From the NCBI GenBank assembly GCA_963930775.1, contig OZ005689.1:26782058-26846057 (forward strand): 64,000 nucleotides of DNA, read 5' to 3'. The first letter of the stretch is position 1, and each line of letters begins with the position of its first letter. The position numbers were made by a program, and so were the translations under genes. Source of the DNA: Cliona cf. orientalis. Lineage: Eukaryota; Porifera; Demospongiae; Clionaida; Clionaidae. Positions 14,817 through 42,851 of the stretch are shown here, piece by piece. Below the pieces are notes generated by a model. It was not told the origin of the DNA, did not search any database, and worked only from the letters and a program-made list of their open reading frames with translations.

Positions 14817-15000
14817 CCCTACTAAAAAGTTTGCCAAGATCTTGGTAAAATCTTGGAGTATTACATGCAAGATTCTTGCACGATCTTGGGTTAAATTTGC
14901 CTGAATTTCGAAGACTATTGAACATGATTCACCAAGATCATCACAAGAAATTTGCATAATCATACGAAATTATGTGCAGTTCTTACATGATCATATGAAA
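14817..15000. repeat. Candidate BEN-side terminus of element A with CTTGCAAG-type words
   Basis: Begins CCCTACTAAAAAGTTTGCC and then carries repeated CCAAGATCTTGG, GCAAGATTCTTGCA and related words. The outer end matches the reverse complement of the sequence ending at 42851, which also lies beyond a BEN gene. It may be the transposon end of the TNP2/BEN pair at 17640-23650, with the Penelope-like element inserted between. Confidence 0.5.
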
Positions 15001-15105
15001 TTTTGTAAGTTTCTTATGTATCATACATGATTGTATGAAGTGACATCGTTCTCAGTTGCTCTGCATGAATAAACGGAGATTCTTTTCGGACAACTTAACT
15101 GTTCG

Positions 15106-15140
15106 GTTAAACTTGCCGACGTTTCGACTAGATGCTCTAG
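15106..15140 (-). ncRNA. Hammerhead-like core motif, minus strand
   Basis: On the minus strand the order is CTGAGGA (CUGANGA box), a GACTAG/CTAGTC stem, then GAAA and CGTCGG. Penelope-like elements are known to carry hammerhead ribozymes in such terminal regions. One extra T after CTGAGGA, and a third helix that I cannot pair convincingly, leave cleavage activity doubtful. Confidence 0.4.
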
Positions 15141-15199
15141 TCATCCTCAGTGCAAAAGTGAAGCAAGGTGCGAAAAGGGTGGTGCTCTTATAGGCGTGG

Positions 15200-15601
15200 C
15201 TACTGCGCTCGCGCACCCATGCGGCTGGGTGCAAGGGGTGGAGCGCCGGTGCGATTAGCACTAGTGCGGTTGCCCCCACCCCCTAGTTTCTTCATTGTTG
15301 CGATCCAACAGCCTGGTAGCTCGTAGCCCCCGTCTCGATTAAGCCTGTTGTTTGCCGGGGTCTTCTCAATATGTAAGGCTTCCTTTACCTTTAGCTGGAC
15401 AGGTCTGGTGGCCCTGTCCAGCACTCTAGTTGCGTCCCAATCCACTTGATGTTGCTGGTCCCACTGGTGCTCGGCTATGGCAGACTTCCACGTGTCCCCC
15501 TTGTTGTATGCATCCCGATGCTCTTTGATCCGCGTCTCTAGGCGCCTCTGCGTTTCCCCAGCGTACACCTTACCACACTGGCAGGGGATCTGGTAGACCA
15601 C
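15200..15601 (-). pseudogene. GIY-YIG endonuclease domain of the Penelope-like element
   Basis: The frame encodes VYQIPCQCGKVYAGETQRRL, then TRIKEHRDA and HIEKTPANNRLNRDGGYELPG. The Y-x-C, YxGET, R-x-x-x-R and N-R-x-G pattern is the GIY-YIG nuclease of Penelope-like elements, preceded by their usual cysteine motif. It nicks DNA to prime reverse transcription. It is separated from the RT frame by a shift near 15610. After the domain the ORF runs into Pro/Arg-rich tail sequence. Confidence 0.85.
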
Positions 15602-17040
15602 ACCTGCCAGTTTCTCCTTGGGGAGGGGTCCTTCACGTTGGTGAGCAGTGAGCGGAGAGTTGGGCCCAATTTGAAGATTACCCGTAGGTCGAACTTCTCA
15701 CAGGCCTTCCTGATCCACTCACTCACACCGCTCACGTATGGGATGACTGCCAGTGGTGGTTTCCTCTCCTCCTCCTGGGATCCTTCATCGTCTGATTCCT
15801 CATCCGACTCCTCTGGTGGCATTGGTGGTTCCTGTGTGGAATAGGAGATGGCACGGATGAACGATAAGGGATAACCGTTCTGTTTGAAAGTGGTGGTGAG
15901 GTGATCTTCCTCTCGCAGGTTCTCCTTCCGTAGAGTGACGTTCCTGGCCCTGTCGAAGGGACTCCTGACGGCTGCCCTCTTTGCACTTGCTGGGTGGTGG
16001 GAGCTGAAGTGCAGGTACCTGTCTGTGTGCGTAGGTTTCCTGAAGACAGTCACACCCAGAGCGCCCCCTCCCTTCGTGTTAGCTTAGTATCAAGGAAGGC
16101 AAGGGAGCCGTCCTTCTCCAGCTCCATGGTGAACTTGATGGTGGTGCGTACACTGTTGAGATGGTTGAGTAAAGGCTCAACCTCATCCTTCTCCATTATG
16201 CAGCATGTATCATCCACATACCGCTTCCAGAACCTTGGTCTCGAGGGAGCCGACTGTAGTGCCAGCTCCTCGAAGAACTCCATGTACAAGTTGGCAACTA
16301 CTGCAGAGACGGGGGAGTCCATGGCTGCGCCCTGCCTCTGCTCATAGAACTCACTGTTGTAGCTGAAGTAGGTTGTCTTCAGACAGAGCTGAAGGAGCTC
16401 TGTGATCCTCTCTGCTGGTAGTGGGGTCTGTTCCACCAAGCCCTCCTCCTCCTCCGTGAGTTTCCTGTGGATGATATCTACTGCTTCATCGATGGGGACA
16501 TTGGTGAACAGTGAGGTGACATCAAAGCTGACGAGAACCTCCTCCGCCTCCACACGCACATCCTTCATCATACCTACAAAATGCTTCGAATTCAAAACGT
16601 GTGAACTGGTCTTCCCAGCCAATGGGGAGATAACTGATGCGATATACTTGGAATGTTTGTACGAAGGGGCTCCTATGCATGAAACGATGGGCCTAAGTGG
16701 GATGTGTGGTTTATGTATTTTGGGTAATCCATATATCCTAGGGGGGATGAACCGGTGGGCCTAATCCTGTTGTATATGCATTTAGTTACCTCCCCATTGT
16801 TGTGTAGCCGTAGTAGTATCCTGGTTTACTGTGTGGCGGTGGGGTCCTTTAACCTCTTGTAGGTGGTGGTGTCGTCCAGCATACCCCTCATCTTCTCGTC
16901 GTAGTCATTCCTCATCACCACCGTCGCGTTCCCCTTATCGGCCGGCAGGATCACCTCATCCTCCAGACTCCTGAGCTCCTTCAGCGCCTTTCGGTGATCC
17001 TCAAGTTGTCTTTGGGTAGCCTGGCACTCCTCAAGATGAG
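15602..17040 (-). pseudogene. Penelope-like reverse transcriptase, frameshifted
   Basis: Minus-strand blocks in order: 17040-16850 with LEDEVILPADKGNATVV; 16760-16615 with PRIYGLPKIHKP and RPIVSCIGAPSYK; 16622-16050 with VSFDVTSLFTNVP, AMDSPVSAVVANLYMEFFEE and the catalytic RYVDDT; then 16053-15640 with VFRKPTHTDRYLHF. These are the hallmarks of Penelope-type RT (TERT-related). Shifts near 16800, 16055 and 15612 break it. The start codon is missing because the 5' end is truncated. Confidence 0.85.
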
Positions 17041-17545: not shown

Positions 17546-18756
17546 TTATTCATACGTGATTGTACATGAGTGAGAATGTTGAATAATGTACATGGCCTAA
17601 TTAACATAATAAGTACAGTATAAGTCTGCTCATCTATTAGCGTTCAGTTTCCATTTGTCCTAACTTGTCTTCGCCGTCTCCTAGCCCTTTCTTCTGCTTC
17701 CGTAGTTTTCGGGCAGCATCTCGACAAGTTTAATTCACTTTGTCCCGAAATGTGGTTATGTCCCACTGGTCATCTTTGTAGCGTTTGTCCATTGCATCAA
17801 AAAACAGACATAGTTCAATCTCTATCACACAGACTAGATGTAAACTACTTATTAAGCATTTTTTCAACGCAAATAGGATCCAATCCAGGCTTGGTGCAAT
17901 TGTGGTCTTTCTTTGATGTAAACAACAAGGAGCGAGCCAGCTGCTCCTGGGTGAAGAGGGAGTGTAGCAACGTCAGCCCATAGGAATAAGCATCCTTCGA
18001 CTGAATTCTCATCATCTTCATCTGCATAACATTAGAATGCCACATTAAAATTAAATAATTATTGTCATCACCCTAAATGAGGGTATTATAGAGGTTTAGT
18101 TGTTATTGACGAGGGTAAAGAGGGTGCAATCTTATTATAATGATGGTTCAAGTAAAAGTACATGGGCCTTATTTACTTGATTTTAGGACAAAAATCAGAG
18201 GAGTCTGCCAGTAGTAATATTATTGTGAACATACATTGATGGTGCTTGAGTTTTATCCTGTTTTACTGCCTTCACTCGTACTTTCTTCCGAACTACAAGC
18301 ACCCATTCTCAGTTTACTAGATCCACCACCATCCGAAATCTCGATGCCTTGTGGAGAGCAACTCACACAAGGGAGAGCTCCAGTTTTCAACTTTCTTTCT
18401 GCACTCGTATGATCTCTTACACTCACAAGGATCTTCTCTACTCTTTTCTCCATACTTATCTGCCGTCTCTTGATATTCTCCACCTTCTCTACCCTTATCA
18501 GCAGCTCCTAACGAACATAATAGAGATTGATCATCTGCAAACACTTTATTAACTTCTAAGTGAACTCTCTCTCCAGGGAAAGATCTCTCACCATCACGAT
18601 CAACGATTGATCCTTGTGATAGGGGAGTACACACGTCATCTTGTAAGTGATGTGACTGAGTCCCAATCTTCGGTTTCTTTGTGGGAGGTTTGCCTTCATC
18701 ACGATCTAGCCTAATATTCTGTATAAAATTCAAGTTTGATATGCATATAATCTTAA

Positions 18757-19406
18757 CCGATTATACGCCATAGGCGCGTTTTCGTGTCATGCATGCAAAC
18801 CGCCATAGGCGCGAAATCGCGCCAGTAAAGCTGTATTAGCGCTATGGCACCGCCTACATTCCAAAGAACGAGAAGCCATAGGCTTGGCTTTCTGTCTATG
18901 ACTACTAGGGGGCCTCCCTTACATACCTGTGGCGTGAGGTCACCTTTGGCCCAACCCACCACTCGCTACTAAAAATGATTTTGTGAAGATCGACGATAAT
19001 GGTGATCGATCCGGGTACGAAAGTGGTACGTTTTCTACCACAGGGCAGGAGGTACAGCTCTGTCGCTAAGTATATAGCTAGACTAGGTCTATACCTACAC
19101 AGATATGACGAGCTTTTCGACAGAGCCAAGCACTTACCTGGGAGTGACTCAAAGATGGCGGCCATTATGGACGTAAGTAAGCTTATAAGCTTTTGTGTGT
19201 TTGTAGCTTATAGTATGTACAGTAGCGCCCTAGCGGCATACTAGAACGATGTAGCAACCTATCTTACATATCATGAAGGCCTGTACGGCCTGTGTAGCTG
19301 TGATACTATGCTGTACAAGACACTTTATTTGTGTCGCTATACTTTCTTGAATAAATTTCAGCGTTGGCCGTACGTATGACGTCATGACCTCTTGGCCTAT
19401 AATCGG
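18757..19406. mobile_element. TTAA-flanked MITE, copy A, in a BEN-gene intron
   Basis: The termini CCGATTATACGCC and GGCCTATAATCGG are inverted repeats, with TTAA at 18753-18756 and 19407-19410. The interior matches 35986-36559 in reverse orientation (shared text such as AGACTAGGTCTATACCTACAC). No coding. The TTAA duplication suggests a Kolobok- or piggyBac-type transposase. Confidence 0.85.
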
Positions 19407-19969
19407 TTAAAGAACATGAAAAATGCAGTGTATAGCAGGAAATCTTTGCCTGATGCACTATTATAATAGTAATACTTCTATAATAATATATTGTACAATA
19501 CCACATCCATACCATACCATACCATACCTCTTTGTCATTTTTTGCTCGTAACAGTATTGATTTCTTGGTGGTGTCCTGCTTAGAACCATTCTTCTTTCTT
19601 CCTTCTGATACCTTTCTCCCTTTATCTACAGTATCATCCTTTGTTGTCTCTGTAACATCATCGTCTATGGAGATAAAAAATTAAGATTATGGTATGAAAC
19701 TTTGCCGCATAGCCATTCTTAAACAAAATTCTAATTCAACAAATTACCTTTATATCTCATAAACTGAACCGGATAAAAGTTCCCCTTGTGCTCAACTAGA
19801 AGTGAAGCTCCAGCCTTGAAATCATATGCAGAAAGTGGGTGACCATCTTCCCGAGATACATCTTTTACCTGAGCCATCAGGAGCTTTCCATTCTGTGAAC
19901 ACTTCAAAATAATCTTCCCTATAATAGTTTTCGGCAATAATAATTACATGTGCATTGTTTGTAGCGTAC

Positions 19970-20420
19970 TTGAGGAGGGGAGGTACAAATGTATGGTAAA
20001 TAAATTTTGAGAGGACCTACAATAGATTTTTTAATGCCTGTTAGAGTACTCTAGCCTAGGCAAGGGGGAGTGGCATTTTACATTTTGATAGACACCTATT
20101 AGTCTAAAAGTAGAGTATTTTGGGACGGGAGAGGTATTTTAAATTTTGAAAGGTGTTACTGTTAGTGTACTCTACGCTGAGGGGAGGCATGTTACATCTA
20201 ATAATTATTTAAGAGGTGTTAGAATACAGTATCGAGAGGTGTTAAAACAAGATCAGCCTAAGAGTATATACTTGAATAACAGGTGTATTGTAACACCTCT
20301 CAGGGAGGGGGGGTACATTTTAAGAGCTAGATGTTCAGTACTCAAGACAGAGGGGAGGCATTCTTAATCTTGAGGGGCTTACTACTAGAGTACTCTAGGC
20401 ATATTTTAAAATTTGAGAGT
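19970..20420. repeat. Degenerate tandem repeats in a BEN-gene intron
   Basis: About five diverged units carry GAGAGGTGTTA, GTACTCTA and GGGGAGGCATTTTA-like words roughly every 70-90 bases. Copies are too diverged for exact unit limits. Confidence 0.5.
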
Positions 20421-20911
20421 TTATACACATACAATATATACTTTATTTATAATCTCAATGATGCCCAAGTACCCTAGCTGTTTAAAATATATAGTATTAC
20501 CATATGCACATCTCATAGCTAGATCTGATCGATGCAAGAGGACTAATTATAATTCTATAGATAAATAGCTAGCTAATCCAATCAAAGATCGATCCATAGT
20601 ACGTAAACATACGGATGGTATACACGCATGCACAATAAATTTAATAAGCCATGTAGTCTAGTTAGTAGTATATACTATTGATCACATGCAGTGCTTTGAG
20701 CTAGCTAAGATTTTAATATGATTGAATACATACTCAACTGATCGTGATCCAGCTCCTCGAGTGTCATTGCCGTCTCTAAGTCTTCTAGTATTTCTCGCAG
20801 CTTCGGAGGCAACCTTTGTCTTGTTGGCCGTTCGGCAGGTACATCTAGAGATACACTAGTGGGAGATGGAGATGAAGACTCGTCTTCAGATGAAGAAAGG
20901 TAGCCAGCCAT

Positions 20912-21170
20912 TTCACTCGATCTTCAACTTAGATTTGTCACCTCGATCATCGAATAAGTTTAACATACGTACATACAACGTCGACGTGCGCGTGCACGTG
21001 TCAGCATCATAATAATTATTATCATGCATATGGGCGCGCGGGGCGCGGAATTAACTATAACCGGCTGGCCACATGTTTGGATGGGCGTGGTTTAACGTTA
21101 CGTTCTATATGAAGCACACTAATACTTTCAGTATCCGGTGTCAACGTTGCTGTCGCTAGCGCTTCGTGTC
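20912..21170. promoter_or_regulatory. Shared promoter region of a divergent gene pair
   Basis: This 259-bp gap separates the BEN gene start (minus, 20911) and the transposase start (plus, 21171). It has CpG-rich words (GACGTGCGCGTGCACGTG, GGGCGCGCGGGGCGCGG) unlike its AT-rich surroundings. No TATA box is obvious. Confidence 0.5.
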
Positions 21171-23650
21171 ATGGAAGAGACACCGAAAAGAATCGGTCCA
21201 CTAAGAACCAGGGGTCCATATCGGCGATATCTCCGTGATGCCTCGGTCCCAATTCCACGATCTACTTTGTGGCATCTTCACAAGGAAGGCCGGTAAGCCT
21301 CATTATAGGCCAGTTTTCATATTATGCATGTCGATCAGTGCATGCCTGCATTATTAATTCAGTAGTGTTCAGAATATGTAGATACACGAGCAAGCCTTTA
21401 AATTAATACTTTCCAGATCAGTCAGCTAGGATGGAAGTGGGTGTGGTATACCCAATGGTTTTGCACCTCTCCCCCTCTCCCTCCCTCCCTCCCTCCCTCC
21501 CTCTCTCTCCCCCCTCCCTCCGTCTCTCCCTCTCACTCCCTCTCCCTCCCCTCCCCCCACTCTCTCGGAGGGGACCTGGTCAATGCATAGAGTTTTAACA
21601 TATATACACTACATCATCACCTTTGCAGACTTATTGTGAATGCTGATTCAGCCTCACTACCACAGGATGATGGACACCGATCATCAGAACTATCAGGCTC
21701 ACTAGAACAGTCCCAACATGACAGATCTTCCCCTTTATCTTCTGAACACTCATCATCGTCACTCTCCCTCAGTGGTTCACCATCTCCTTTATCCCTTGGT
21801 GGCGATGGGCACCCCTCACCACCGTCTCTTGGTGATACACTGTCTCCCCTGTCATTAGGTGGTGATGGACACCCTTCACCATCTGATAATCCCTCTCCCT
21901 TGTCGTTAGGTGGTGATGGTCACCCTTCATCAGTCTCCTAGTCGTACTCCTTCTCCCTTGTCGTTAGGTGGTGATGAACACCCCTCACCATCATCCACTG
22001 GTGATATTCCCCCTCATGGTGATGGACTGCCTTCATTTGAGCAAGTATTTGAAAATAAGGAACTATTTGAACCTTTGTATGATGGAGCAGACATCGCTAT
22101 CTGTGGGGCATATACTGTTATATTATGCAGTTCACTTCATCTAACAACCTTTCTTTTACTGCCATATCTGAGCTAATAAAGCTTTTGCATATCTTATGCC
22201 CTGTACCAAACAAGCTTCCTTCAAGCTTGTACATGCTGAAAAAGTTTTTTAAGCAATTCAACGTTGCTTTCAAACACCAACAGATTTGCACCACATGCTC
22301 AACCCTAATAGAGACTAGTGATTGTAACTGCCCTACGTGTACAGACAACGCTGTCTGTAATCCTGAAGCTGTTGGTGACCTCTTGCACATTCCCATTCAG
22401 AAATCACTCAAAACAGTCATATCTAGTAAGTTACTCTACTTTGTTGTATATGCTGATAAGTAAACCATGCATTTTACACATAGATCACTGGGAGGTCCTT
22501 CAGGAGAGTCCAGCTGCATCATCGTCTGAAGATTCTTTGAGTGACGTTTGGAGTGGTGATTATCTTCGGAGGCTATCTTGTGAGGGTCGTTATTTTTCAA
22601 ACAATGACAATCTTGCCCTTGTTTTCTCCGCTGATGGTGTACCGCTATTTAAGTCCTCTTCCATATCCCTTTGGCCAGTCTACTTAATTATACTCAATCT
22701 GCCCCCAGGTATACGCATGAATTCAGAGAATGTTGTCATGGCAGGGTTATGGTATGGCAAAAAACCACCCATGAAACATTTGCTATCTCCCATCATGGAA
22801 AGCCTTAGTCAGTTAAGCATCCTTGGAATAAGCATCAGCACGTCTCATGGTTTAAGAACCTTTTGCACAAAGCTTGTCATGGGTGTGTTTGATTTGATTG
22901 CCAAACGAGATGTCCTTCATGCTAAGCAGTTCAATGGCAAATATGGTTGTTCCGTTTGCCTTAACCCAGGAACAGTCATTTCAGGAAACACACAAGCTTA
23001 TCTTCCAAGTGATTTTGAAGTGCGTACTCACCGTGCAGTAGTTGCTGCCGCAAAATATAAACGGCTGATTGAAGTGTTTATTTCACAGTCGTTCATAAAA
23101 AATTTTTTCATCAATTGCTATTCAATGTTGATATCAGACAAACACTTCACTTTGTTCACCATACATTAGCTAAGGTTGAGAGTGAGCCAACAATCAACTT
23201 TGTGCAATCCTCTTTCAGGCAAAATATGGTGCAAATCGATTCCCATAGTTACATTTTGGGTCAGTCGAAACTTGTAGAAGCTACAGAATAGCGGAAGAGT
23301 TTGCTTGATACTGATGGACCAATTGAAGTGTTCTCTAGACTTACATGCGGGGGAGTAAGTATACCTCAAAAAATTATGCTAGAGGGATAAGTGGAAAACG
23401 AAAGGACACTGTGTGTGTTTTCAGAACTGATGATAACGACAGCAACTACGGTGAAATCGAAAGTTTCATTAACATGTCCCCACCGCAAGCAATCATTCAA
23501 GTTTTGCGTGTACAAGGACAATCAATTCTACAACAAGCTGGACATCCTTGTAGACCAGCCTTGAACTTATCAAGGAAATTGACATTTTGAAGTCGTTTAT
23601 TGCACGTGTTGTGTGTACTGGACCACTAGCTGCAGTTCCCCTTGAGGTCC
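21171..23650 (+). pseudogene. TNP2-like (CACTA-type) transposase gene A
   Basis: Exon 1 (21171-21292) starts MEETPKRIGPLRTRG and has the YRRYLRDASVPIPRSTLW block. After a CT-rich intron, exon 2 from 21629 has Ser/Pro repeats (GGDGHPSPSDNPSPLSL), then EQVFENKELFEPLYDGA, the KLLHILCPVPNKLP region and a cysteine cluster (CTTCSTLIETSDCNCPTC). The exon from 22484 carries the core: LVFSADGVPLFKSSSISLWP, MAGLWYGKKPPM, GVFDLIAKRDVLHAKQFNGK and YGCSVCLNPG. A C-terminal block lies near 23400-23650. Cut-and-paste transposition is the expected role. Frameshifts near 21930, 22118 and after 23090 break it. Confidence 0.75.
21470..21570 (+). repeat. CT-rich low-complexity tract
   Basis: CCCTCCCTCC/CTCTCTCC repeats fill most of intron 1 of the transposase gene. 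Confidence 0.9.
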
Positions 23651-23740
23651 AAGGCAGTGTTTCTCTGCATAAATGACTTGTTTTATGCTATCAAACTCCC
23701 GAATAATTATGAACATCATTAGTAATAGTGCACAATGTTA

Positions 23741-23995
23741 TAACCCAGCTAAAATGGACTTGCAAGAGCCTGCAAGAGTCATGCACAATACACAAGATCT
23801 TGCAAGACTTGCAATTGCAAGATCTATTATACAAAAATCTTGCACTTTTTTAGGCAAAATCTTGCACACATTCATGCATGATTTGCATTCTTGCACACAT
23901 CTTGCAAGTCTATATACACATGACATATGCATTATAATATAATACTATTATAACTCGCATGTATCTTGCACACATCTTGCAAATAGTTATCTGAC
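23741..23995. repeat. CTTGCAAG-word array, copy 1
   Basis: Starts CCCAGCTAAAATGGACTTGC and holds about a dozen TCTTGCA, TGCAAGA and CTTGCAAG words in both orientations. It lies just beyond the transposase gene A. Dense short words in both orientations resemble subterminal transposase-binding sites of CACTA elements, or a MITE whose right end I cannot place. Confidence 0.55.
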
Positions 23996-24061
23996 AGTAA
24001 TTGGGGTGCATGCATGAGATGCATGGTCGAATGCACCCCAATTACTGTCAGATAACTATTT
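23981..24061. repeat. 31-bp perfect inverted repeat
   Basis: AAATAGTTATCTGACAGTAA and onward (23981-24011) pairs exactly with 24031-24061 around a 19-base loop. A second, 12-bp pair (TGTTGGTAGTTG / CAACTACCAACA) brackets 24062-24165. Confidence 0.88.
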
Positions 24062-24369
24062 TGTTGGTAGTTGATCTCTGTTCATCATTGACCTACTGAC
24101 GCACCCCCTTCCCATAGGCGGCAAATTTCCTATAAAAACTTTGGTTGCTAAGCAACTACCAACAAGTCTCTACATACACATGACATTGTATACCGTATAG
24201 CCAGAAATTTTCGCCTGGAGAAAATTTTCGCCTTTTTCACTCAGGCGCGTCGTGGGCGAAAATTTTTTCAGCAAATTATTTTACCCAGTGAAAAATTTGT
24301 CACACTGGAACTTTTACACGTGGCGGCCAAGCTGTACTAGTAGTGCCTCGATCAGCTGGTATTCAAACC

Positions 24370-24600
24370 CAGGGCCGTAGGAAGCAAAAATGTAGTAGTC
24401 AGGCTCATAATCTATGATGATGAGAGAATTAGATAAAGTAGATAGTACAAGGAGTTTGGTGGAAGACAAGAGTTGTACAAATAGTCATGATTGGATGGGA
24501 AAAACTACTGCGCATGCGCGCAAGGAAGTTATGACGATCTTTACCTAAAAATCGATCAAAAAGTGGCCAGGCCATGGCCTGACCGGCTCCTACGGCCTTG
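24370..24600. mobile_element. 231-bp hAT-like MITE inside the pogo-like element
   Basis: The left end CAGGGCCGTAGGA matches the reverse complement of the right end, TCCTACGGCCTTG. CAAACC flanks both sides (24364-24369 and 24601-24606). CAGGG..CGTA starts are typical of animal hAT MITEs, although 8 bp is the usual hAT duplication. Confidence 0.7.
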
Positions 24601-24632
24601 CAAACCTCATCTTTTTCGATCTGCAGTCTAGC

Positions 24633-26170
24633 TTGATGTTGCTACTATCGTACTTCCACGTTGCTCCTCGGGTTTTGCCCGATCCTTCCGGACCCCTATC
24701 GGCGGAGCTGTCCCCTTCCGCCATCACAGAGGCCAATGCTGTTGTGAACGGCGTGCAGCAAGCGAAGACTAAGGGAAATAAGAAGCGAGGGACGTACATC
24801 AAGTACGATGAGAAAATGAAGATTAAGATGGTGAAATATTCGAGCGAAAATGGGATCCACGCGGCGGCGAGGCACTTCTTCCTCGAGCTAGGAATATCAA
24901 CCCAAGCACTATTCGTGGATTCAAGAAAGCGCACCTTCAGGAGCTGAATCGGAAACGAAGAGCCGAGGAAGATGATCTCACTGTCACCAGCCTGCCTACC
25001 AAGAAGCGCGGTCGCCCTCTACTATTAGGGGAGGAATTGGAGCAGAAGGTACAGCTGTATCTGAGAGCGATTTGGGAGTCAGGCGGAGCGGTGAACACGG
25101 CCATTGTTTTAGGTGCTGCTAGGGGTATCATATTGAAACTAAACAGGACTATGCTAGTCGAAAATGGTGGACATGTCGACCTAACCCTAACCAAAGCTTG
25201 GGCCAAAGGTTTGCTGGGACGGATGGATGGGGTACGTGAAGAGAAGGGGAACAACAAGCAAGAGCAAAAATCTTGTTGAGAACTTTGAAGAGCTGAAGGC
25301 ATCATTTTTGGAGCAGGTGTCGACAACAGTGATCATGGATGAGATACCACCCGAGCTAATTCTGAACTGGGATCAAACTGGTCTCAACCTCGTTCTCTCA
25401 TCATCTTGGACCATAGAGCAGAGAGGAGCCAGACGTGTTGAAATCACAGGCTTGAATGACAAACGTATGATCACTGTCGTATTCTGTGGTACACTCTGTG
25501 ATTTCGTACCCTTGCAGCTTGTTTATCGAGGGAAGACCGAGAGATGCCATCCAAAGCACAATTTCCCCGAAGATTGGCATATCATACATTCACCTAACCA
25601 TTGGTCCACAGAGGAGACGATGAAGGATTACCTCAATCATGTTCTGTTCCCCTACATTGACAAAATAAGAGCCAGCTATGCCCTAGGTGACGTGACGACT
25701 ATCCTGCCTTAGCAATTTTTGACAATTTCAAAGGCCAGATCACCGAAGATATCCTACACCTACTCGAGGATCACAATGTCCATTCAGTCAGGCTTCCAGC
25801 AAATCGCACCGATCGCTTACAACCGATGGACATAAGCGTCAACAAGGCAGCCAAAGACTTTATTCGGCAAAAGTTCAATGAGTGGTACTCGGAGAAGGTA
25901 GCTGAACAGCTTGAGATAACACTGATGTGGAGCAGCAGCTGATAGAACCACTGAACCTCACAGGTGTGGTATTGAAAACTGTTGGAGCGAAATGGCTGGT
26001 CCAAATGCATGAGTACCTTCAGGACAACCCAGGACTCGTCAATGGTTTTCGGAAGGCAGGTATTCAAGAAGCTGTCGACTCCACCAACGAAACCGTGACA
26101 GCTAACGACTCCCTCGAAATGGTGACAGCTATCAACTCCACTGACACTGTGATCAGCTCATCCGACGAAG
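24633..26170 (+). pseudogene. Pogo/Tigger-like transposase (DDE_1), frameshifted
   Basis: N-terminal part: YDEKMKIKMVKYSSENGIHA, a helix-turn-helix-like region, then KKRGRPLLLGEELEQKVQLY (24990-25060). The catalytic core 25290-25720 has LNWDQTG, ITGLNDKRMITVVF and VYRGKTERCHPK; the second acidic site is IFDNFKGQ near 25720, and RTDRLQPMDISVNK near 25810 gives the third, a D-D-D set. Shifts near 24895, 24950, 25225, 25712 and 25915 break it. The homologous fragment at 31229-32071 (minus) has the same N-terminal half. Confidence 0.82.
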
Positions 26171-29569: not shown

Positions 29570-29574
29570 TAGTA

Positions 29575-31228: not shown

Positions 31229-32071
31229 TTACAGCTTACTCAATGATGTTGTGGCCTTCCTTTGCACGAAATTCATTCTCTTTAACAAAGAATGTGCCCA
31301 ATGTCTGTTTAATTGTATTGGGCCACCATTCTCAGCCAGCATTGATTGGTTGCACTTGCGCAAGATTCCTCGTGCAGCTGCCATAGCTATCCTGGCAGAT
31401 ATGGCTCCACCTCCTTCCCTTACTTTTCTTAGATACAGCTGCACTTTCATATCCAGGTCTTCTCCAAGTAAAACCTTCCTGCCTCTCTTCTTGGCAGGAA
31501 GATCTGAGATTTCCTGATCGCTTTCATCATCACAGCGCCTTCTCTTGCGTAGCTCTTCCTCGTACACCTTCTTCATCGATTTAGCAGTACTGCGACTCAC
31601 AGATTTCTTCAGCTTATGAGAAAAATGTCGCGATGCTGCTGTCGCTCCATGTTGAGAGGCATACTTTCCAATCTGTGAACGCTCGGATGAAGTGTATGTC
31701 TGGTAATGTCCACGTTTTCCACCAGCTACGCTGCGAGTAGCTTCCTCGACTTCTTTGTTCATTTCTGCGATAACATCTGGAGAAATCGTAGTTGAAAGTG
31801 ACCCTTTTGGATCGGGAAGACCATTGGCAGATTTGAAGTAACGCAACAAAGCCATTTCAACCGACAAATTCCACGGTAGCTGCGAAAAGATCAACACCTC
31901 CTTTCATACAGCACCGTATACACGCAGTAAGTGCATCTGCTCCAATTATTCATCACAGAAAAATTTCCACCAGCTGTAATTATTCAGACTGAAGATTTTT
32001 CGCACGTTTAATTTTCGCCGCTTAAGCAACCGGCGAAAATTATTTAACGGCAAAAATTTCCCGATCTACGG
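31229..32071 (-). mobile_element. Truncated pogo-like transposon (N-terminal half)
   Basis: The outer end at 32071 reads, on the minus strand, TA/CCGTAGATCGGGAAATTTTT. ORF 31897-31229 encodes a 222-residue transposase start with the basic motif GGKRGHYQTYTSSER, SQIGKYASQHGATAASRHFS, KKRGRKVLLGEDLDMKVQLY and NGGPIQLNRHWAHSLLKRM. It is uninterrupted but lacks the catalytic domain. It sits in an intron of transposase gene B, after LPPILR. The left limit is uncertain. Confidence 0.75.
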
Positions 32072-32203
32072 TATTCTGGTGCCATTGTAAGGATTAATAC
32101 ACACACTTTATCACCTTAAAATCGGTGGTAGTTCAATGATGTGTAGCTGAATCGGCCAAATCTGCATATTTGATGACTTGAACTTCGGTGCACCATCATA
32201 ATT

Positions 32204-33776
32204 CGCCGTTAAGCCAGTGGTCCAATTGTTGCAGGTGAATCTGGTGGCACATTCCAGTGCATGCAATTTTTGCCGTTTTTTATCTATTTTTCTTACTCGT
32301 TCTATCTAGGCCATCTTTCACTTGTAGGACTCCAAACAAAGACCAGAAGACAGAGGAACTCTTCTACTTTCTGCTCGTTCAAGTCCCATAACCCGGAGAC
32401 ATTATGAGCTCCGTGGCAAGCACTTTTGTGCATGCTACTCGCAAGCGCTCACAAAAAGTGCCTCGCGCAAAAAGTGGTACGTTTTGGTTCCCCTGGATGG
32501 ATTCCCAGGATTCAAGCACCATTCAATAGCTCTTGTATTGCTCTACAATATAAGACTGGAACGAAGTTTTTCCATCGAGCTGTTTCAGAGTTACACAGCA
32601 TCAAAAATCAGAAAATTTCAGTACAACCGCGTGGTATTTTCCATATCTTCTCGAAGGTTTATGGAGTCTGCCTAAGAACAAATAGTAAATGACAAGAAAA
32701 AGAGTATTCCTTGTGTACTGCCAAGCTTCTAGGGAGGAGGCATCATCATCCAGATGGACGGATTCCTTCTCTATAGTCAAGTAAGCATATCTGAATGTTG
32801 GCCACAGTGAATAATATTAACATTATCATGACAAAGCGTGTGTGAGGCGAGTGTATCAGCGTAAGTCCAGGGATGGGGGTGAGCCTTACCAGTGTACATC
32901 AGAGGATGAGCCTGTGTTAAAGCAGCTCACATCAAAGCTGAAGACTAGTCTCGCGCACCAGGCTGGGGACAAGACTAACTGAAAACCCCGAGCGTATACT
33001 TGCAACTGGGAGGTAGCTAGTACTTTACTAGTATTTTTTTATCTGTGTCCCTCCCTCCTTCTCTCCCACTCTCTCTGTCTCTTTCCCTCTCCCTCTCCCC
33101 CTCTCTCACCCTGATCCCATGTAGGTACACAATAGGTGATGTTCCCGGCTGTGATCAGATTACCAACTATATAAAGAAAGTGCTTTCTGTCAACCATAGC
33201 TGTGATGATGGAATAGGAGACTGATTGTGAAAGCTCCAACAACCTTCAGCAAAACTTCAAGATGGCCTTTGATAGCTAGCAGCAACATAGCTAGCTTGTA
33301 CTATGTTTAATGTCATTGTAAACGTACACAGCAAAATAGTAATTTTTGTACTATTTGTAACAGCGTGTAACTTTGGAACCGCTCGATGGAAAAACTTTGT
33401 TCCAGTCTTATATTCTAGAGCAACACAAGAGCTATTGAGTGGTGCTTGAATCATGGGAATCCATCCAGGGGAACCAAAACGTACCACTTTTTGCGCAAGG
33501 CACTTTTTGTGAGCGCTTGCGAGTAACATGCATAAAAGCGCTTGCCGCGGAGCTCATAATGTCTCCGGGTTATGGGACTTGAACGAGCAGAAAGTAGAAG
33601 AGTTCCTGTCTTTTGATCTTTGTTTGGAGTCCTAGAAATGAAAGATGGCCTAAATAGAACAAGTAAGAAAAATAGATAAAAAAAGGCAAAAATTGCACGC
33701 ACTGGAATGTGCCACCGGATGCACTTCCTGGATCTGCAACACTTGTACGTATTTTGGACCGCTGGCTTAACGACTG
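32204..33776. mobile_element. Foldback-like element, 1573 bp with arms of about 400 bp
   Basis: Left arm 32204-32615 pairs with right arm 33350-33776 (for example CGTTAAGCCAG and GTACGTTTTGGTTCCCCTGG on opposite strands). AATT flanks at 32200-32203 and 33777-33780; deleting the element and one AATT rejoins FTLN to YDGAP in the host transposase. The 730-bp centre has a CT-rich tract at 33040-33110. ORFs in the arms (for example LLLSARSSPITRR) appear in both orientations and look incidental. Confidence 0.87.
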
Positions 33777-35287
33777 AATTGAGGGTGAATGACACATTGT
33801 AGCGACCACAAAAAAATGCTGATGCATCACCATAAACTTTACCATCATAAATATTACTTAAGTGGCCTTCTGGGTGCTGACGCTCAAAACGATACTGCAA
33901 CTGCTGCAGAAAGTGTGTGTCTGTGAATAGTATTTCATTATTTCAAGTTACTAGCATTGGCTTTCTACCTCAAATTACCTTGAAATAAGTTTTGTAGTTG
34001 TTTATCAATAAGCACCTGAACAAAAGTGGCTTCACCAGCACTGGCTACTACGCATTCAGTACGAGAGCATTTTGACCCAGCAACAAGCAGTTAAGAGCAA
34101 AAGTTACAACATCGATGCACAACTGTGGAGCCTTCATAGTTGATGAATTGATTAAAGAGCAGATGTTTTGAGTGAGGAACTGAGTTTGGAAAAGGTAGTG
34201 CCGAAGTAAAAAGCTCAAGGATGTCAGATAAACAAGCATACGTCAAGCTATGCTTAAGGAAGATGGTAAGTAGGCATGTAGAGAATTCTTTGTTAGACAT
34301 TTGGGATCCTGAATACAATTCAGTGTGATCGACAACTGTTTCAGTATCTTCCTCACCACTAGCAGTATCGTCAGAACTAAAGCTCAAGATATCACCTGTA
34401 AGTCAGAATCAAAGTTAGGGACTAGTTAGTAGTTGGGTGGCCATTACAGGGACCCACACCACTGATCAATGACTAGCAGGGGACAGTAAATTAAGTGAGA
34501 AGCCAATTAAAAGCTCATGGGTAGTCAGATATGTAGGCAAGTTTGCATGGGGGGGGGGGGGGGGCGCATGCTTTTGCCAGAGGTGTCATTACCTAAAGTT
34601 TCCTCTCACCATGGACATTACTATTATTAACTAAAATCAATTCAGTCATACTCGGGTTCACTCTCACCACCAGTCTCTTCCCCACTAGAGTCTTCAGAAT
34701 TCGAGCGGGTGGTATCTTCACCACCACTTGAAAATCCTGAGGCACACGCCGAATCAAGTTGCAATTCTGAATCAGGATGATGATCGCTCTTCTGAGTTAA
34801 CCTCAACCTCCGAGTCAACGTGACTGACGTCATTGTTGTCATCAGCCTCGACCTCTGCCTCATTCTCAGAGCTTGTTGAACCTTGAGCGCCGAGAGACTC
34901 CGATTGAGACCCAGACTTAAATCGCTTCTTGCGTATTTCTTCTTCTACTAATCGCTTGGCGACGTTTTGTCGCACACGTCTCCGCTGCTGCTTGCTAATA
35001 GTCTTGGCTGTCAACATTTCCAACATGAGTTACGTACTAAGTACGTACGTACATGTATACAACTTAACTTGAACTGCGTGCCGCGCCCACATCAAATTAT
35101 GCATATGCGGCTGCATTGTTCACGTGTGCGCGCCACGATTTATAATTATCCCGTGCTTATCACGTGCGTACAGTAAATGAGCGCGGGCAAAAAGGACAGC
35201 ATGCACGCACTGGCCGCTGGCAGCTGGAGCTAGCTGTGTCGAACGAAGCCTACTGCACGTTTATAGTGGTCGATCGTGACTGTCGAT

Positions 35288-35377
35288 GTTAACAGACTTA
35301 CAAGATGCTCCGTATACTGGTAGCAAGATTAAGAGTAGAAGGCAGCAAGAGAAGACAAAAAGCAAGGCTACCAAAGG
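35288..35377 (+). CDS. Possible first exon of BEN gene B
   Basis: An ATG at 35288 opens MLTDLQDAPYTGSKIKSRRQ and about 10 more codons up to AAAG/GTACC, a usable splice donor. It is 261 bp from the divergent start of transposase gene B at 35026, mirroring the 259-bp gap at element A. No domain is present, so this is inferred from position. Confidence 0.35.
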
Positions 35378-35459
35378 TACCGCCATATTTCTCACTGTAT
35401 TATCCATTCTGTACCCTCGTGCTACTGTATGTCAGTGACTAGCTGCTTATGTATATTGG

Positions 35460-35830
35460 GCTTTTCCATTTTAGCAAATACCCCCTATTGAGGAGCAAAT
35501 TGTGAAATGACCCCCCCCCCCGGCCAGGAACAAATTAACTCGTTTTGCCCCCCCCCCCCAAAGAATAAGTAATTTGGACAATTGAACCCCCTAAGATCAA
35601 TTAAATAATATTTATCTGAAATACGTACTCTCTGGAAATTAAGAAGTGGTTGCTTGACCCCTCCAGAATCTGCTTTTTGGTAGAAATACCCCACAGGATT
35701 AATTAAAATCATAAAAGAGGCCCATAAGAACCAGTTAAATTGCCAAAAGGACCCTCAAGAAACTCATTAAAAAGCCCCCTCAGGATCACTCCTCAATGGG
35801 GGGGGGGGGGTGTATGCCTATTAAATGGAA
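35460..35830. repeat. Degenerate tandem repeats with C runs
   Basis: About nine units of the type ACCCCCTCAGGATCAATTAA, roughly every 35-45 bases, with C runs at 35510-35521 and 35551-35560 and a G run at 35800-35811. Confidence 0.6.
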
Positions 35831-35985
35831 GAGCCCATTCAGTATTCTCACATGCTAGCCTTACCTGCTCAAAAAGAGAGAAAGGGTTTGGTAAAATGCA
35901 TGTTCATGGCGATCCAGGTGTGTTAAATGGAAAGTAACTGCCGGTTAATAATGTACCATGTGCACAAGATGTATGTGTCAATTAT

Positions 35986-36559
35986 CCGATTAGAGGCCAA
36001 GACTTCATGACATCATCCATATTGCCAACACCGAATTTCATTCAAGAAAGTATAGCAACGCAAATAAAGTGTTGTATAAAGCATAGCTACACAGCTACAC
36101 AGTCAGTACAAGCTTTAGTGACAAGTAAGACAGGTAGCTGCAACGTTCTAGTACGCTGCTAGGGTGCTACTATACATACTATAAGCTACAAGCATACACA
36201 AAGCTTATAAGCTTGCTTACCTCCATAATGGCCGCCGTCTTCGAGTTGCTCCCAGGTAAGCGTTTGGCTCTGTTGAAAAGCTCGTCATATCTGTGTAGGT
36301 ATAGACCTAGTCTAGCTATATACTTAGCGACATGCAGAATTGTACCTCCTGCCCTGTGGTGGAAAACGTACCACCCTCGTACCCGGATCGATCGCCATTA
36401 CCGTCTATCTTCACATAGACAGGAAACCAAAGCTATGGTTTCTCGTCCTTTAGAATGTAGGCGGTTCCATATAGCACTAGTATAGCTGTACTGACACCAA
36501 CTGACGTCAATGGCGGTTCGCATGTATGCCGCCAATTGGCGTCAATGGCGTATAATTGG
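35986..36559. mobile_element. TTAA-type MITE, copy B
   Basis: Inverted relative to 18757-19406, with termini CCGATTAGAGGCC and GGCGTATAATTGG. The right flank is TTAA, the left TTAT. It lies between the candidate first exon and the main body of BEN gene B, as copy A lies in BEN gene A. Confidence 0.78.
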
Positions 36560-36562
36560 TTA

Positions 36563-38540
36563 ATTGTACATACATAAGTATGGACCAGTTGCATTCCAGT
36601 TAACCACATCTGTCAGTGACTGGTCCGTGTGCAACCCTTTAGGCCAGACCCTGTATATATAAGGTCAGGTGAACTGAATTCACAGTTGATCGTCACTGCA
36701 CACATGAATTTTCAGATTTTCTCTAAAACGTTAGATTTCATACAGTAACGCTTTGGCCCCTCCCCCTGTACGCTGCGATTGAAGAGTGACAATTGCTAGT
36801 ATGAAATCTAAATAATGACCGCCCCATTCGTATGCTGACCAAACCCCACATATATGTGTACATGTACGTGTATACATATCTGTGACGGATGACCCTTCCA
36901 AGATATCTGTAGATGGGGTGTGCAATGTGGACCCTACATGCTTCGTATGCCAGTGCAGTAGTGACCAGTGGAATAACTCATGTACTATAATTAACCACTG
37001 TAACAGTAAGTTTGTATACTATGCTTACACCGCTACAGTATAAAGTCATTCTGTGGTAATGAACCTCGTGATCATGCAGCTGTCCATGAAAACACCATGT
37101 AGTATAATATGCATGTGTACAAGTGATAGTGATTGCAAGACTTTTATTGATGGGCTATATATTTTCACCATCAGTAATCTCAGAATATCTTCTTTTTCTA
37201 AAATCTGATGCGGCCATGTGCTGTATGCAAAGCGTGTATGCATATGTCCTGCATGATTCAACCACTGAGATACTGTTTTTTTTGTGTGGTTTTGTGGTTG
37301 GAGATCAATGCACAGTTCTTGAGCCTTGAAGTTACTATATTATTGCCATTGCAATTCACTTGTGGACATGAGTTGTTCGCATCAGCAGCCTTAATTTTAG
37401 TGTCAATTTTGAAGACTCAATCAGAGTTAAATAGTAGGCATATTATGTCAGCTGGTCGAAAATGTCTTTTGACTCCACATGTTTGCTCACTCCATAGAAG
37501 CTTTAAAGGTCGAAAATTGGGTAGCTAAGGCAAACAAGACACGAGATGAAAACAAAACTTTTCAATGGAAACGTCTTTTCAATGAGAGACTCCCTCCATG
37601 ATTAATACCTCCAAGTGGGATGATGATGATGTACTAGGAACTGAAGTACAAGCCATCACCTTCAAAAGGTGTGCCATGGATACCTTATGTACATGATATT
37701 ATTCAAGAAAGCACCACTATCTTGTTACACACCATCGGACAGCTGAATGTCAGCAAGTATCTTGGGAAGTTCATCTTTGAAGCATCCAACAACAGCAGCA
37801 ATGATTTTTTTGTTTGGACAAGTGGCCTCGTTCGAGATAGCTGTTGTAGCGTGGCAGAAATATACGTGTATTCTCATATCCGCTGCACTAGCTGTAATAG
37901 GTATTTTGACTGTAGAGGAGGGTGATTACGTCACACTCATCAATCAGATCATCACCAAACGGAAGACTGAAAGTGAAATCTTCTGTCGCTACGTGCTAAT
38001 GGCCTTGCTAATGTCTACTTCATCCCATTGTTCAAAATCATGCAAGTTTTTTTTTCGTGTACCTATGAAGTCTCCGTATGGGTGTTTCCAGTATTCTGCC
38101 ATATCCTGAATACCTTCAGTGAAGTCTATATCCTCCAAGAGACACGCATCGGCTATAGCAGCCTCCACAGTAGCATTTGGCGGATCCTGAGTCGTAGAAG
38201 TGATAGATGGCTGGTTGAAAAATTCTCCGGGTGCATAGCTATGTTGTGCTGGCATTGGTCAACCAAAGATTTGACAACGTATTGTGGTTATGCAAAATGT
38301 AAAAGTCTATGATGATCAACTGTCAATTTAGTTTGCCACTCTTAATTGTATACGTTATGTGGTATATATGTGCTATATATGTTGTGCCTATCATGTAAAA
38401 CCTATTCTTTATGTTACACTTACGCACGTGATTGTGATTACGATTGCATTGCCTACCACAGTGTACGGTGCATTTTTGCTACAACAAATAATATTATACT
38501 CCATATTTAAATATATTTCTATCACGTCATAAATTCTCTA
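36563..38540. other. Unassigned stretch, possibly intronic
   Basis: A cysteine-rich open stretch at 36900-37010 (DPTCFVCQCSSDQWNNSC, then a GTAAG donor) looks like an exon. Other ORFs (37123-37528, 37671-38109, and 38255-37989 on the minus strand) have no recognised domain. Whether these belong to BEN gene B or to other debris is undecided. Confidence 0.35.
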
Positions 38541-38543
38541 TAG

Positions 38544-41500
38544 ATACATACTTCCTTATAACATGGTTAGAAGGTACAGGTGGTGAAACGATGTATGATG
38601 TCGTCAATGCTAGTAAGACAGTGGTCCCGCCAGAAGATAGTGGCATCCTTGATGTTGTGGCGGGAATGACCTGTCGAGTTTCCTATACTGATGGGTGTTA
38701 CTACAAGGCAAAAATTGTGGACAAAGGTAATTGATTGCTATATTATACTGTTCATACATGTAGTATTGCATTTAGGTAGCAACATCGAGTTGCGAAAGAA
38801 ACAAAAGCAAATGGAGAAAGAATTGGATCAGGAAGCTGAGGTATTAAATAATAGTTACTATTATGTGTAGTTGATACAATGGATACGTGTATACAATTAG
38901 GATTATAATACTTAATGTAGGAGGATATCTCTCAAGCTGACATCCCCAAACAGGTCTCACGTCTCAAAAACCTGATTTACCGCTAGAGACTCCATCACGG
39001 CCAAAGGTTTCCCGTGTCAAGAAGGCTTCAAAGACAAGTATGTTAGTGAACACAAGTGATCATCCTTAAGTCAGACTCTGTGCATGATCTTTGCAGAGCC
39101 AGTCCGCAAAATACCCTCTTCTACCGACGTCACTGACAGTGAATCAGATGGTATGTTTCTAACCTAACAGTGTTGAGGGTACCTGTTACACTAATATTTT
39201 ATGCATATAGTGGATAACCAATGTGAAAGATATACTGAGAAAGAGCCCAAAAAATCTCCAAAAAAAAAAGAAAAAAAATAGTGAATATGCCATCAGGCAT
39301 TTAGTGTTCATACTATTACACAATTGTATAGATCCCATCAGCATCTTATCCAGTTCAAGTGACGAAGAAGGTAGCCAATCAACTCTTTTTTGTGGTATAA
39401 TACTACTATGATGTAATTTTTGTAGAGGAGACCCGAAAGAAGCGAATAAAGTCACCCAAAAAAGTATTCCCAAGTAAAGCCTGTGCCAGGAAGTGTCCAG
39501 GAAAGAGAAAATCACCAGCTAAGAAAACAAAAAAGGTGCATGAATATAGAATTATGGCTCTCGCACTTTTTATGTACCCAGTGAATATATTACCCTCTAC
39601 GTTAATTGTATTATTTCTCACGTATTTAGTGTCTGGGAGTGCTTCTGCTCGTATACTTCAGGTATCTAGAGGTAATTGACATTATTTAATAACTGTAATT
39701 GATAATTAGTGATCTATGTAATAATAGAATTACGAACGACAATAGATGATGACATTGCAGGTATTGTGAATGACCGATATATAGTGCCATAATTATGCAT
39801 TGTTGGTATAGGTGTAGTATGTTATGGTAAAACTGATATTGTAATGTCATATTGCACTCCCATAGAAAACCCATAGGGCCTGGAGCATATAGTGAGCAAA
39901 GTGACGGCAGAAACGATCGATAAATGATATGGTAGTACATGACAATGTCATGCATGCATCATTTTTTGCACCCTACAAGCTCGTCACTGGACCTTTACAT
40001 ACGAGCTTCTCAAGATTTTTATTGTCTTCGAATGCATTTATGGAAAGAACTATATTGCACAATGCTCATCCCTATAGGGTCACATCACTCTGAGGCTTTG
40101 ATGCAATAAATAATTTATTGCATGATTGTCTGTGCATTTATTTGGATTTGCCCTACAGATACTCCAAGTGATTCTGGCATTCTGGATCCATCAGGTAATT
40201 AGGTGACTAATAGAAGTAAATACTTCTGTTAACTACGTAATTACTAGATGAGGAGATGAGCAAATCAAAGCCAAGAGGTGGTAGTGGCGGTAAGAAAAGA
40301 AAAGCTATGTGCTGGTATTTTCATGTGTCCACATAGGAGCTGGTTCCAAAGGTCAAGCTAGGATTGAAAAACATGCACGACAGGAATGGCAAAAACTGCG
40401 GGTTAGGCTGTAGGCTAGCTAGCCTTGTACCATTGAGACTTGATAAGATGCTGATATGACATTTTATTTGTGTGTGTGCATGCAGTTCCCCAGCCTGACA
40501 CCAAGCTTGGCCTACGAGGATGTGAGTTATGCCTAGCTAGAATCATGATATAATTTATAATTGCTATGTACTTGTGAATTTTAATTTAGACTGTCCAGCG
40601 CTCACAAGGATTTGATACAGTAAGTTATTAATCCTTATATTCATTTTCATTTACATGCACCTGTGTGTGTATACTAGGGAGCAGCAGAGCTAAGCTATAT
40701 CAAGGATAATGTACGAGAGTTGGAGGTATGCATGTGTAGTCGACATGGTGATTAAATTTTGTGTTGCATGCTATATACTTGCATGTCTAATGTAGGAGAC
40801 AACAAAGAAGCTTAACTCGAAGGTGAGACGACAGGAAAAGGAGATTCTCGAGCTTAAACGGAGGACTGAAACTCCCTCATCTGCTATGGAATCGGCATCA
40901 GATATTTCTCCTTTCGTACCAAAACAGCGAAAATCGATTGTCAGCAGTCTGTCAGGACAGATCGAAATGGATATTTGAGGATGACTTCATAATTTATATT
41001 ATGCTTAATCTATGTGGGGGGGGGGGGAGCATACTTAGTAATGCAGCATGATGGATAAATATTAGGAGTGGACCATGCATGCAGTATGACAAGTTGGAGC
41101 TCCAAAATTATTTTGATCTGTTTGTGCTCAAATTAATTAGGAATGTTACATATTTTTGTTGCATGCATATGTTCCTAGGAGCATATCTTGATCAATTCGC
41201 ACAAAGTCAATAGGCTGAAGTTGCAATCTGCCAAATTACAACCTGATGCAGCTAAATGTGCCCTGCAGTTGAGTTGTCTCTTCAGAGGAGCTGGTAAATG
41301 GGAACCCTTCAGGTACAACAACTGCGAGAGATGAAGTCCGCAAACAAACAATAAAAAAGTTAGATCCAGTTAGGATGAACTACATAATAGGTACATATAT
41401 TTATTATTGTACTATTGATATATTGCTGATGTATTACAAGGTTTTGTATGCATGCAGATTACATTTCCAGCAAATAGCCAGATGCCCTTATCAAGGACAA

Positions 41501-41588
41501 GATTATTAAGAAATTAACACAAAAGTGTACCAACTTATATTCGAGCCGTAAGGAACTACGACACATGATACATGCTAGGAATGAATAA
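38544..41588 (+). pseudogene. BEN-domain protein gene B, many small exons
   Basis: Exon 1 of this body ends at 38727 and has WLEGTGGETMYDVV and CRVSYTDGCYYKAKIVDKG, a Tudor-like strand set. Small exons with GT..AG borders follow: LRKKQKQMEKELDQE, PVRKIPSSTDVTDSESD, Lys-rich CPGKRKSPAKKTKK (39425-39535), DTPSDSGILDPS, then coiled-coil-like ETTKKLNSKVRRQEKEILEL (40797-40975, ending in TGA). Beyond it, 41180-41395 and 41458-41588 encode SSEELVNGNPSG, KTIKK-like LDPVRMNYII and KIIKKLTQKC, the second half of a BEN domain. In-frame TAG near 41474 and a shift near 41280 damage the domain. Architecture matches BEN gene A. Confidence 0.6.
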
Positions 41589-41779
41589 TATCTGAATTTT
41601 GACTATAATGCATGTACATGTGCCAACATGCTGTGCCTATATTTCACATGATAATCATAATTACACTGACATACAGTGTTCATTCATTAATTGTTGATTC
41701 CATATTTTTAAAAATAGGTATATTATATAATATATACCTTTTATCTATGTATATACTGTAATTATGACATTTCAACATG

Positions 41780-42118
41780 CAAGATTCTTGCAAAGGGATT
41801 ATATATTATAATAGCCTAGCTCAGGCCATTTATTGCAATGATCTTGCCAGATCTTGCAATTATCTTACAGAATTGGTAATTGGTACTCTTGCACTATTTT
41901 TCTTGCAAGATAGATATCAATCTTGCAGTTCTTGTATCTATCTTGCATAGTGTTTCTTGCAAGTAACTTACATATTTACAAGATAGTTGTAAGATATATG
42001 CAAGAAAACGGTCATATTTCTTGCATGTACAAGATTTATGCAAGAAGCTTGCAAGTCTTTCATAGCAAGAGTAAGCAAGGAACGTTCAAGATCTTGCAAG
42101 TATATTCTAGCTGGGTAT
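41780..42118. repeat. CTTGCAAG-word array, copy 2
   Basis: About twenty TCTTGCA/TGCAAGA words in both orientations. The right end ATTCTAGCTGGGTATAA is the reverse complement of the start of the 23741 array (CCCAGCTARAAT). It lies just beyond BEN gene B. Confidence 0.6.
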
Positions 42119-42689
42119 AATTAATGTACAATGGATGTCAATTTCTTGGTTTCTTTTACTTCTTACTCTTTCTTTTTTTTCCTGTCCTCCATTTTGTATT
42201 CTTCGTAGCCTTCCATGTCTACGTATCCCTATTAAAATTTAATAATCAACATTTCAAAGATAGTTTTATAATATTGCATGGATTGCTCATACCCCACGAG
42301 CCAGCTTGAAGCCCATTAGTGTTAACAAAATGTCACGATGACAGCAAAAATTCCCCCGTCAAGGTACCACTGAGGAGAAAAAACTGCACAAGATATTGTA
42401 TCATACTAATAGCAAGCAGTAAAATCAACTAGTACAATGTCATGCACCGTTTACCATAAATGGTGGTTCCCTGTCCATTTTGGCACTAGCTAGCTAGTTC
42501 AAAAGTAGACTGAAAAAATCAGGCAAAATACTGAGCACAGCACAAAATAGATCACTGGCTAGCACAGATACACTGGCAGGAAAAGCTACACGTGGCATGA
42601 ATTGTATTATGGGTTATAGTGCACACTAATTCTTGTATAAACACCATGTTAATAGTATGCAATGAGTACTATCTTTTTCCATTATTTTT

Positions 42690-42851
42690 CAAGAATCGTG
42701 CAAGATCTGGTGAGTTCTCCAGACATTGCCAACATACATTGTCACTTCTTGCCACTGTGTGCATGATCTTGGCACATTGTGTAAGACCATGCAAGGGATT
42801 GCAAGATCTTGTTATACTTACGTAAGATCTTGGCAAGACCGTTTAGTAGGG
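42690..42851. repeat. CTTGCAAG-word array with TTTAGTAGGG terminus
   Basis: Words such as GTGCAAGATCTGG, GCAAGATCTTG and AAGATCTTGGCAAGACC lead to TTTAGTAGGG at 42842-42851. Reverse complemented, it matches 14817 onward over about 30 bp, which makes it a candidate BEN-side end of element B. Confidence 0.5.

Follow-up and report, generated by a model that had tools for sequence, protein, structure and literature searches.

A BEN-domain gene moves together with a tnp2-like transposase gene in CACTA-like DNA transposons of the sponge Cliona cf. orientalis

We have analyzed a stretch of 64,000 nucleotides from the sponge Cliona cf. orientalis (C1:26782058-26846057, hereafter the window; the assembly totals 217 Mb and the genes bear introns) that contains two decayed elements, A and, nested within it, B. 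Each has a tnp2-like transposase gene and, facing away from it, a gene of the BEN type. Comparison with relatives in the same genome, namely a third family (C) and a relative of A (A'), revealed that the transposase and BEN genes share a common pair of enclosing ends and are mobile as a unit, that the second protein has a BEN fold and that a short motif is repeated near the ends. With moderate confidence we regard A and B as dead, nested members of an animal CACTA/EnSpm (TRC-type) cut-and-paste lineage, in which the BEN protein would be the DNA-binding helper of the element.

Both genes lie within the ends of family C

Three copies of family C were found at C6:4601906-4608767, C11:3107582-3114431 and C1:24261143-24267941. 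They measure 6.8-6.9 kb and are 98.4-99.7% identical over main alignments of 6.6-6.9 kb. The similarity ends abruptly at CCCTATAAAAAATACC and ...CCATCTGATAGGG, beyond which the flanks are unrelated, and each copy has its own 2-bp target duplication (TA, TG or AA, one per copy). Inside the ends every copy carries a transposase gene with an open exon of 617-618 codons and a divergent BEN gene. The exons of both genes are free of stops and the BEN coding sequence is identical between two of the copies (1068/1068 nt). The C transposase scored 51.4 bits with Pfam Transposase_21 (curated cut-off 28.6) and has the putative catalytic residues D52, D139, C158xxC161, H363xxxH367 and E387; the C/H pattern is that of PMC12730594. 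The two-gene DNA transposon carrying a BEN protein, which the original prediction had proposed from the window alone, is thus realized in three dispersed copies in which shared ends and 2-bp duplications enclose both genes.

Searches with the C ends, the best candidates of which were scored, gave four transposase-side and four BEN-side matches at 99-100%, all of them in four two-gene loci, and no high-identity copy with C ends but without the BEN gene. The fourth locus, at C1:22.12 Mb, has both genes and a BEN-side match of 123/169 bases. The transposase-side end had two more matches (72-74%) in other sequences, one of which (C1:26183157) adjoins a paired locus. Transposase ends excluding the BEN gene, which would have spoken against the prediction, did not appear at high identity among the candidates scored.

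The BEN protein and the generality of the pairing

BEN domains are modules of animal chromatin and insulator proteins and also occur in viral proteins. In the elements described here the BEN protein has an acidic N-terminus, a putative Tudor-like small beta domain, a Lys-rich linker, a coiled coil and a C-terminal BEN domain. Unlike BANP, Insensitive, BEND3, BEND6 and NACC1, it is encoded by a transposon and has a Tudor-like N-terminal part. The Pfam BEN profile (curated cut-off 23.2 bits) scored 29.4 in A, 25.0 in A' and 25.1 in a single exon of C. The fold comparison of the C protein matched BEN structures. The predicted BEN domain is hence supported by the profile in A, A' and C, and in C by the fold as well. 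An AlphaFold2 model of P0001, which represents most of a BEN protein, was poor (mean predicted local distance difference test, pLDDT, 49.5); the N-terminal part alone was usable, and there was no BEN chain among the matches listed in a structure comparison with this model. Neither P0001 nor the A' BEN end, searched by sequence against the PDB, hit a BEN chain or anything meaningful. Six minus-strand BEN rows were excluded from the structure alignment.

Searched against protein sequences, the C BEN protein had 2 matches and the C transposase 333. Among the 120 of these that were listed, three had a source name: Halichondria panicea LOC135330772 (ca. 51% identity), a Thioglobus-labelled protein and a bare 'hypothetical protein'. 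The transposase alignment, searched against collections of viral contigs and genome contigs, gave no locus from another species.

Spliced models were used as tblastn queries, since the Pfam BEN search on single exons (51 genome matches, E up to 1) had found none in the window. The C BEN query gave 57 matches that merged into 25 loci. The A' BEN query added three (two weak, E 0.07, with the right position and orientation, and one at E 0.2 without a transposase) and the Tudor-like piece of B added four, which rest on that piece only, making 32 BEN loci. On the transposase side 82 matches were merged by hand (fragments per locus) into 76 points or, for the pairing count, into 74, to which six of the seven from a search with a piece of B were added (the seventh was merged), 80 in all. 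A tnp2-like transposase lay within 8 kb of 23 of the 32 BEN loci, and all 23 pairs were divergent. When the BEN points were re-placed at random on their own contigs (assumed length 9.5 Mb, and 37.5 Mb for C1), 1000 trials gave a mean of 0.46 pairs and a maximum of 4. Since members of one family (the four copies of C, for instance, or other equally scoring pairs) do not count as independent, there are fewer separate lineages than 23. Conversely, the 26 top transposase points had a BEN relative in 17 cases and, weakly (E 0.07), in 2 more with the A' query. At the more distant tnp2 families mostly no BEN relative was found, be it through a true lack or through excess divergence.

Ends, repeats and the role of the BEN protein

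The ends read CCCTACT, CCCTAT and CCCAGCT, without the CACTA core, and the CCC terminal core is present in A, A', B and C. Five of the six elements with both ends read (A, A' and the three C copies) have a 2-bp target duplication; that of B is of 3 or 5 bp. The terminal sequences of A, B and C differ, and TCTTG subterminal repeats are common to all. TCTTG/CAAGA reaches 15-52 per kb in the terminal regions of A, A', B and C (end lengths of 220-730 bp, picked by eye) versus 2-3 per kb in the element interior or the window flank. Dyads of the form CTTG(N0-2)CAAG number 3-7 per end in B and C. A motif that persists although the terminal sequences have diverged indicates a common binding protein, which could be the BEN protein or the transposase.

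There are precedents for parts of this organization. Plant TnpA binds subterminal repeats. In maize, the products of tnpA and tnpD are both essential for transposition, and TnpA reactivates the methylated promoter and represses the active one (PMC1636069). The elements found here resemble plant En/Spm in their subterminal repeats and in combining a transposase-type protein with a putative DNA-binding helper. They differ in having a BEN fold and separate genes in divergent orientation, TnpA and TnpD being products of a single alternatively spliced unit, and in their CCC rather than CACTA ends. The parallel between the BEN protein and TnpA is proposed from the layout. SmTRC1 of Schistosoma, one of the animal CACTA (TRC) elements, has, like the elements found here, a Transposase_21 transposase, terminal repeats starting with CCC and 2-bp direct repeats at its flanks; a second gene such as the divergent BEN gene is not described for it in the text available (PMC1636069). 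For Insensitive, dimeric binding of the BEN domain to a palindrome is described, and the C domain and the coiled coil mediate multimerisation of the protein (PMC6317261).

Putting together the binding of Insensitive, the background on TnpA and the kept motif, we think a TnpA-like helper role, comprising binding, synapsis and anti-silencing, most likely for the BEN protein. The lineage would carry two divergent genes, one for a tnp2-like DDE transposase and one for the BEN protein. The latter, multimerising through its coiled coil, may attach to the TCTTG/CAAGA subterminal repeats and would in this way bring both ends together for the transposase. Besides, it might act on the shared divergent promoter, possibly preventing its silencing.

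Several points weigh against this interpretation. For nine of the 32 BEN loci the nearest transposase, if any, is more than 8 kb away, and no BEN relative was found at seven of the 26 top transposase points, so BEN is perhaps dispensable for some relatives. Scored over its whole length, the C protein reaches 22.2 bits, and P0001 has 19.4, both just under the Pfam BEN cut-off. In B the BEN match is weak (16.1 bits, E 0.013, below the cut-off and read across frame breaks), and of the BEN end predicted for both genes of the window, that of A stands and that of B does so weakly. B has no 2-bp duplication, and the dyads are rare in the ends of A and A' (0-2). Between A and A', the ratio of nonsynonymous to synonymous changes (dN/dS), computed over parts of the genes (four stretches of BEN exons and one of the transposase), was 0.41 for BEN, a small sample of 21 differences in 221 codons, and 0.65 for the transposase, again a small sample (19 differences, 191 codons). 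Finally, the transposase itself could bind the subterminal repeats.

An alternative that we consider possible, if rather unlikely, is that the BEN protein counters silencing or acts as an insulator, opening or bounding the chromatin of the element from outside the cut-and-paste complex, a function proposed for TET/JBP dioxygenases in fungal transposons. The Tudor-like and Lys-rich parts weakly suggest contact with chromatin, a BEN protein is a boundary factor in flies (PMC6317261), and fungal EnSpm and other elements carry an accessory TET/JBP gene (PMC12730594). The fungal elements are similar in having an accessory gene with a proposed action on chromatin or DNA marks and different in that they have a dioxygenase in place of the BEN protein, the host here is an animal and the duplication is of 2 bp rather than the 3 bp given for the EnSpm cases. 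However, the TCTTG repeats are dense at both ends, in keeping with a protein that binds there. One role does not preclude the other.

It is improbable that the BEN gene was captured from the host and travels as a passenger without a role. The genome has many other BEN genes (the 51 Pfam matches mentioned above, E up to 1) and some tnp2-like elements have no BEN relative that we could find, which speaks for a passenger. Against this, all 23 close pairs, those of the diverged A/C and B groups among them, have the divergent arrangement, the BEN exons are free of stops in A' and in the C copies, and the BEN dN/dS is 0.41, from few changes. The idea that the pairs are domesticated host genes or segmental duplications and not mobile, which the single decayed loci of the A and B families might suggest, is largely refuted by family C, whose copies have sharp ends with inverted termini and 2-bp duplications in unrelated surroundings, as well as by the lack of B at the matching point of A', and must be deemed extremely improbable.

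Returning to the helper role, we tentatively propose, with less than even confidence, that in an animal CACTA lineage a BEN protein was recruited into a two-protein system of the TnpA type, in which it binds the shared TCTTG subterminal repeats, pairs the ends by means of its coiled coil and counteracts silencing of the divergent promoter; some host BEN genes may descend from such elements or have passed through them. A search of titles and abstract openings, which left most subscription papers outside its scope, found no report of a BEN gene inside a CACTA-type element. As far as the consulted sources go, this gene is the new part, CCC-ended animal CACTA elements and fungal EnSpm with accessory genes being already known. 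These elements offer an animal counterpart of plant TnpA and of the fungal TET/JBP elements, and DNA transposons that moved recently and regularly include BEN are a candidate source of BEN gene expansions. A testable prediction is that the transposon BEN protein binds its own subterminal repeats.

Elements A and B in the window

The relative A' (C1:26054154-26061591, 7.4 kb) has both ends of A, lacks B and is collinear with the window: window 14817-15036 and 17550-21001 correspond to its BEN side, 21056-23741 to its transposase and 42122-42852 to its transposase-side end (92% identity). As A' aligns in order to both CCCTACTAAA termini, at 14817 and 42851, these are, by this alignment, the two ends of the single element A, which is flanked by a 2-bp target duplication (TT/TT) and interrupted by B and by smaller insertions (Table 1). 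The original prediction had taken them for matching BEN-side ends of two elements, a reading that the alignment rules out, and it missed the transposase-side termini because it mistook one of them for the BEN-side end of B. Two copies of the gene pair are present, as it proposed; they belong to two diverged elements, B being nested in A, as its absence from A' and its own inverted ends indicate.

Table 1. Features of elements A and B, in window positions
Feature	Position	Strand	Basis or remark
Element A, CACTA-like, CCCTACT ends	14817..42851		Both ends align to A'; own DNA 14817-23743 and 42116-42851
BEN-side terminal region of A, CCCTACTAAAAAGTTTGCCAAGATCTTGG...	14817..15036		A' alignment; TCTTG-rich
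BEN gene A	17643..20911	-	Matches 20911-20711, 19919-19743 (Tudor-like), 19698-19528 (Lys-rich)
BEN gene A, C-terminal part	18513-18406 (coiled coil), 18045-17848 and 17807-17643 (BEN)	-	Protein matches
Divergent promoter region of A, 259 bp	20912..21170		Between the two A gene starts
Transposase A (tnp2-like), broken	21171..23719	+	Pfam and A' comparison
Element B	23744..42115		Own inverted ends CCCAGCTA.../...TAGCTGGG; A' continues without B at 26054865-26054868
Ends of element B as read: CCCAGCTAAAATGGACTTGCAAG... and ...CTTGCAAGTATATTCTAGCTGGG	23744 / 42115		
Transposase B remnants	30106..35026	-	34294-34097, 32272-32114, 30715-30491, 30252-30106; 35026 is a candidate start
BEN-type gene B	35288..41600	+	Tudor-like piece 38549-38728; 35288 is a candidate start
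BEN-type gene B, 3' part	Coiled coil ~40.7-40.98 kb; degraded BEN-like end ~41.2-41.6 kb	+	Coiled coil by eye
Transposase-side terminal region of A, ends ...CAAGACCGTTTAGTAGGG	42116..42851		92% to A'

In A, the start of the BEN gene at 20911 lies in a match to the A' protein (20711-20911, 92% identity). Protein matches and spacing agree with the predicted divergence from the transposase start at 21171, across 259 bp; the stretch 20911-21171 has one further genome match (72%), located in A'. The Pfam score of the BEN domain (18045-17643) was obtained with X typed at one stop. Stops occur in three of the six BEN matches; one is inside the coding part near the C-terminus, and the others, at match edges, are taken as intron. 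Transposase A is TNP2-like as predicted (Transposase_21, 43.6 bits, above the cut-off), and its first exon (21198-21269) is 83% identical over 24 amino acids to a Halichondria panicea protein. Both transposases of the window are broken: that of A has a premature stop (by eye), several frame changes and no counterpart of A' exon residues 213-406, and that of B is fragmented. The exons of both genes in A' have no stops.

B is flanked by TATAA/TATAA (5 bp), or by ATA/ATA (3 bp) if its ends are ACCCAGC...GCTGGGT. One B end used as DNA query against the genome found no second copy, and the transposase piece 34294-34097 has relatives, 45-53% identical, at three other loci. An inverted duplication (32216-32596 / 33365-33743, 86-94%) in the transposase region is part of the decay.

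Other sequences lie within both elements. Window 15037-17550, not present in A', is an insertion in A that has a reverse transcriptase open reading frame (ORF; RVT_1 26.3 bits, below the cut-off of 29.6) between 515-nt inverted arms (94%), and that from its appearance we take to be Penelope-like. Relatives resembling miniature inverted-repeat transposable elements, with inverted repeats I5, I10 and I15 (81-93%), are located at 18757-19397, between BEN exons of A and missing from A', and at 35982-36415 in B. Window 27165-27941 is 96% identical to DNA just outside A' (C1:26051692-26052477), another dispersed repeat. Inside B, two ORFs of pogo/jerky type (24549-25712 and 31229-31903) are alike by eye; one has a DDE_1 match below the cut-off (E 0.067) and the other has none. 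A further ORF in B (26353-26793, minus strand) has a HIRAN domain (27.7 bits, cut-off 24.7).

Outside the window, 49 of the 76 tnp2-like transposase points are on C1 (37.5 Mb, 17% of the assembly), far above its share, which suggests a repeat-rich or unusual chromosome. Other BEN domains are found in long single ORFs of 287-728 amino acids at C1:29350131, C1:37291144, C14:6093989, C4:4003935, C5:7336652, C3:3666359 and C3:8982977. They have equal or nearly equal scores at several places, the nearest tnp2-like point is at least 89 kb away, and they possibly represent another kind of BEN-carrying mobile element.

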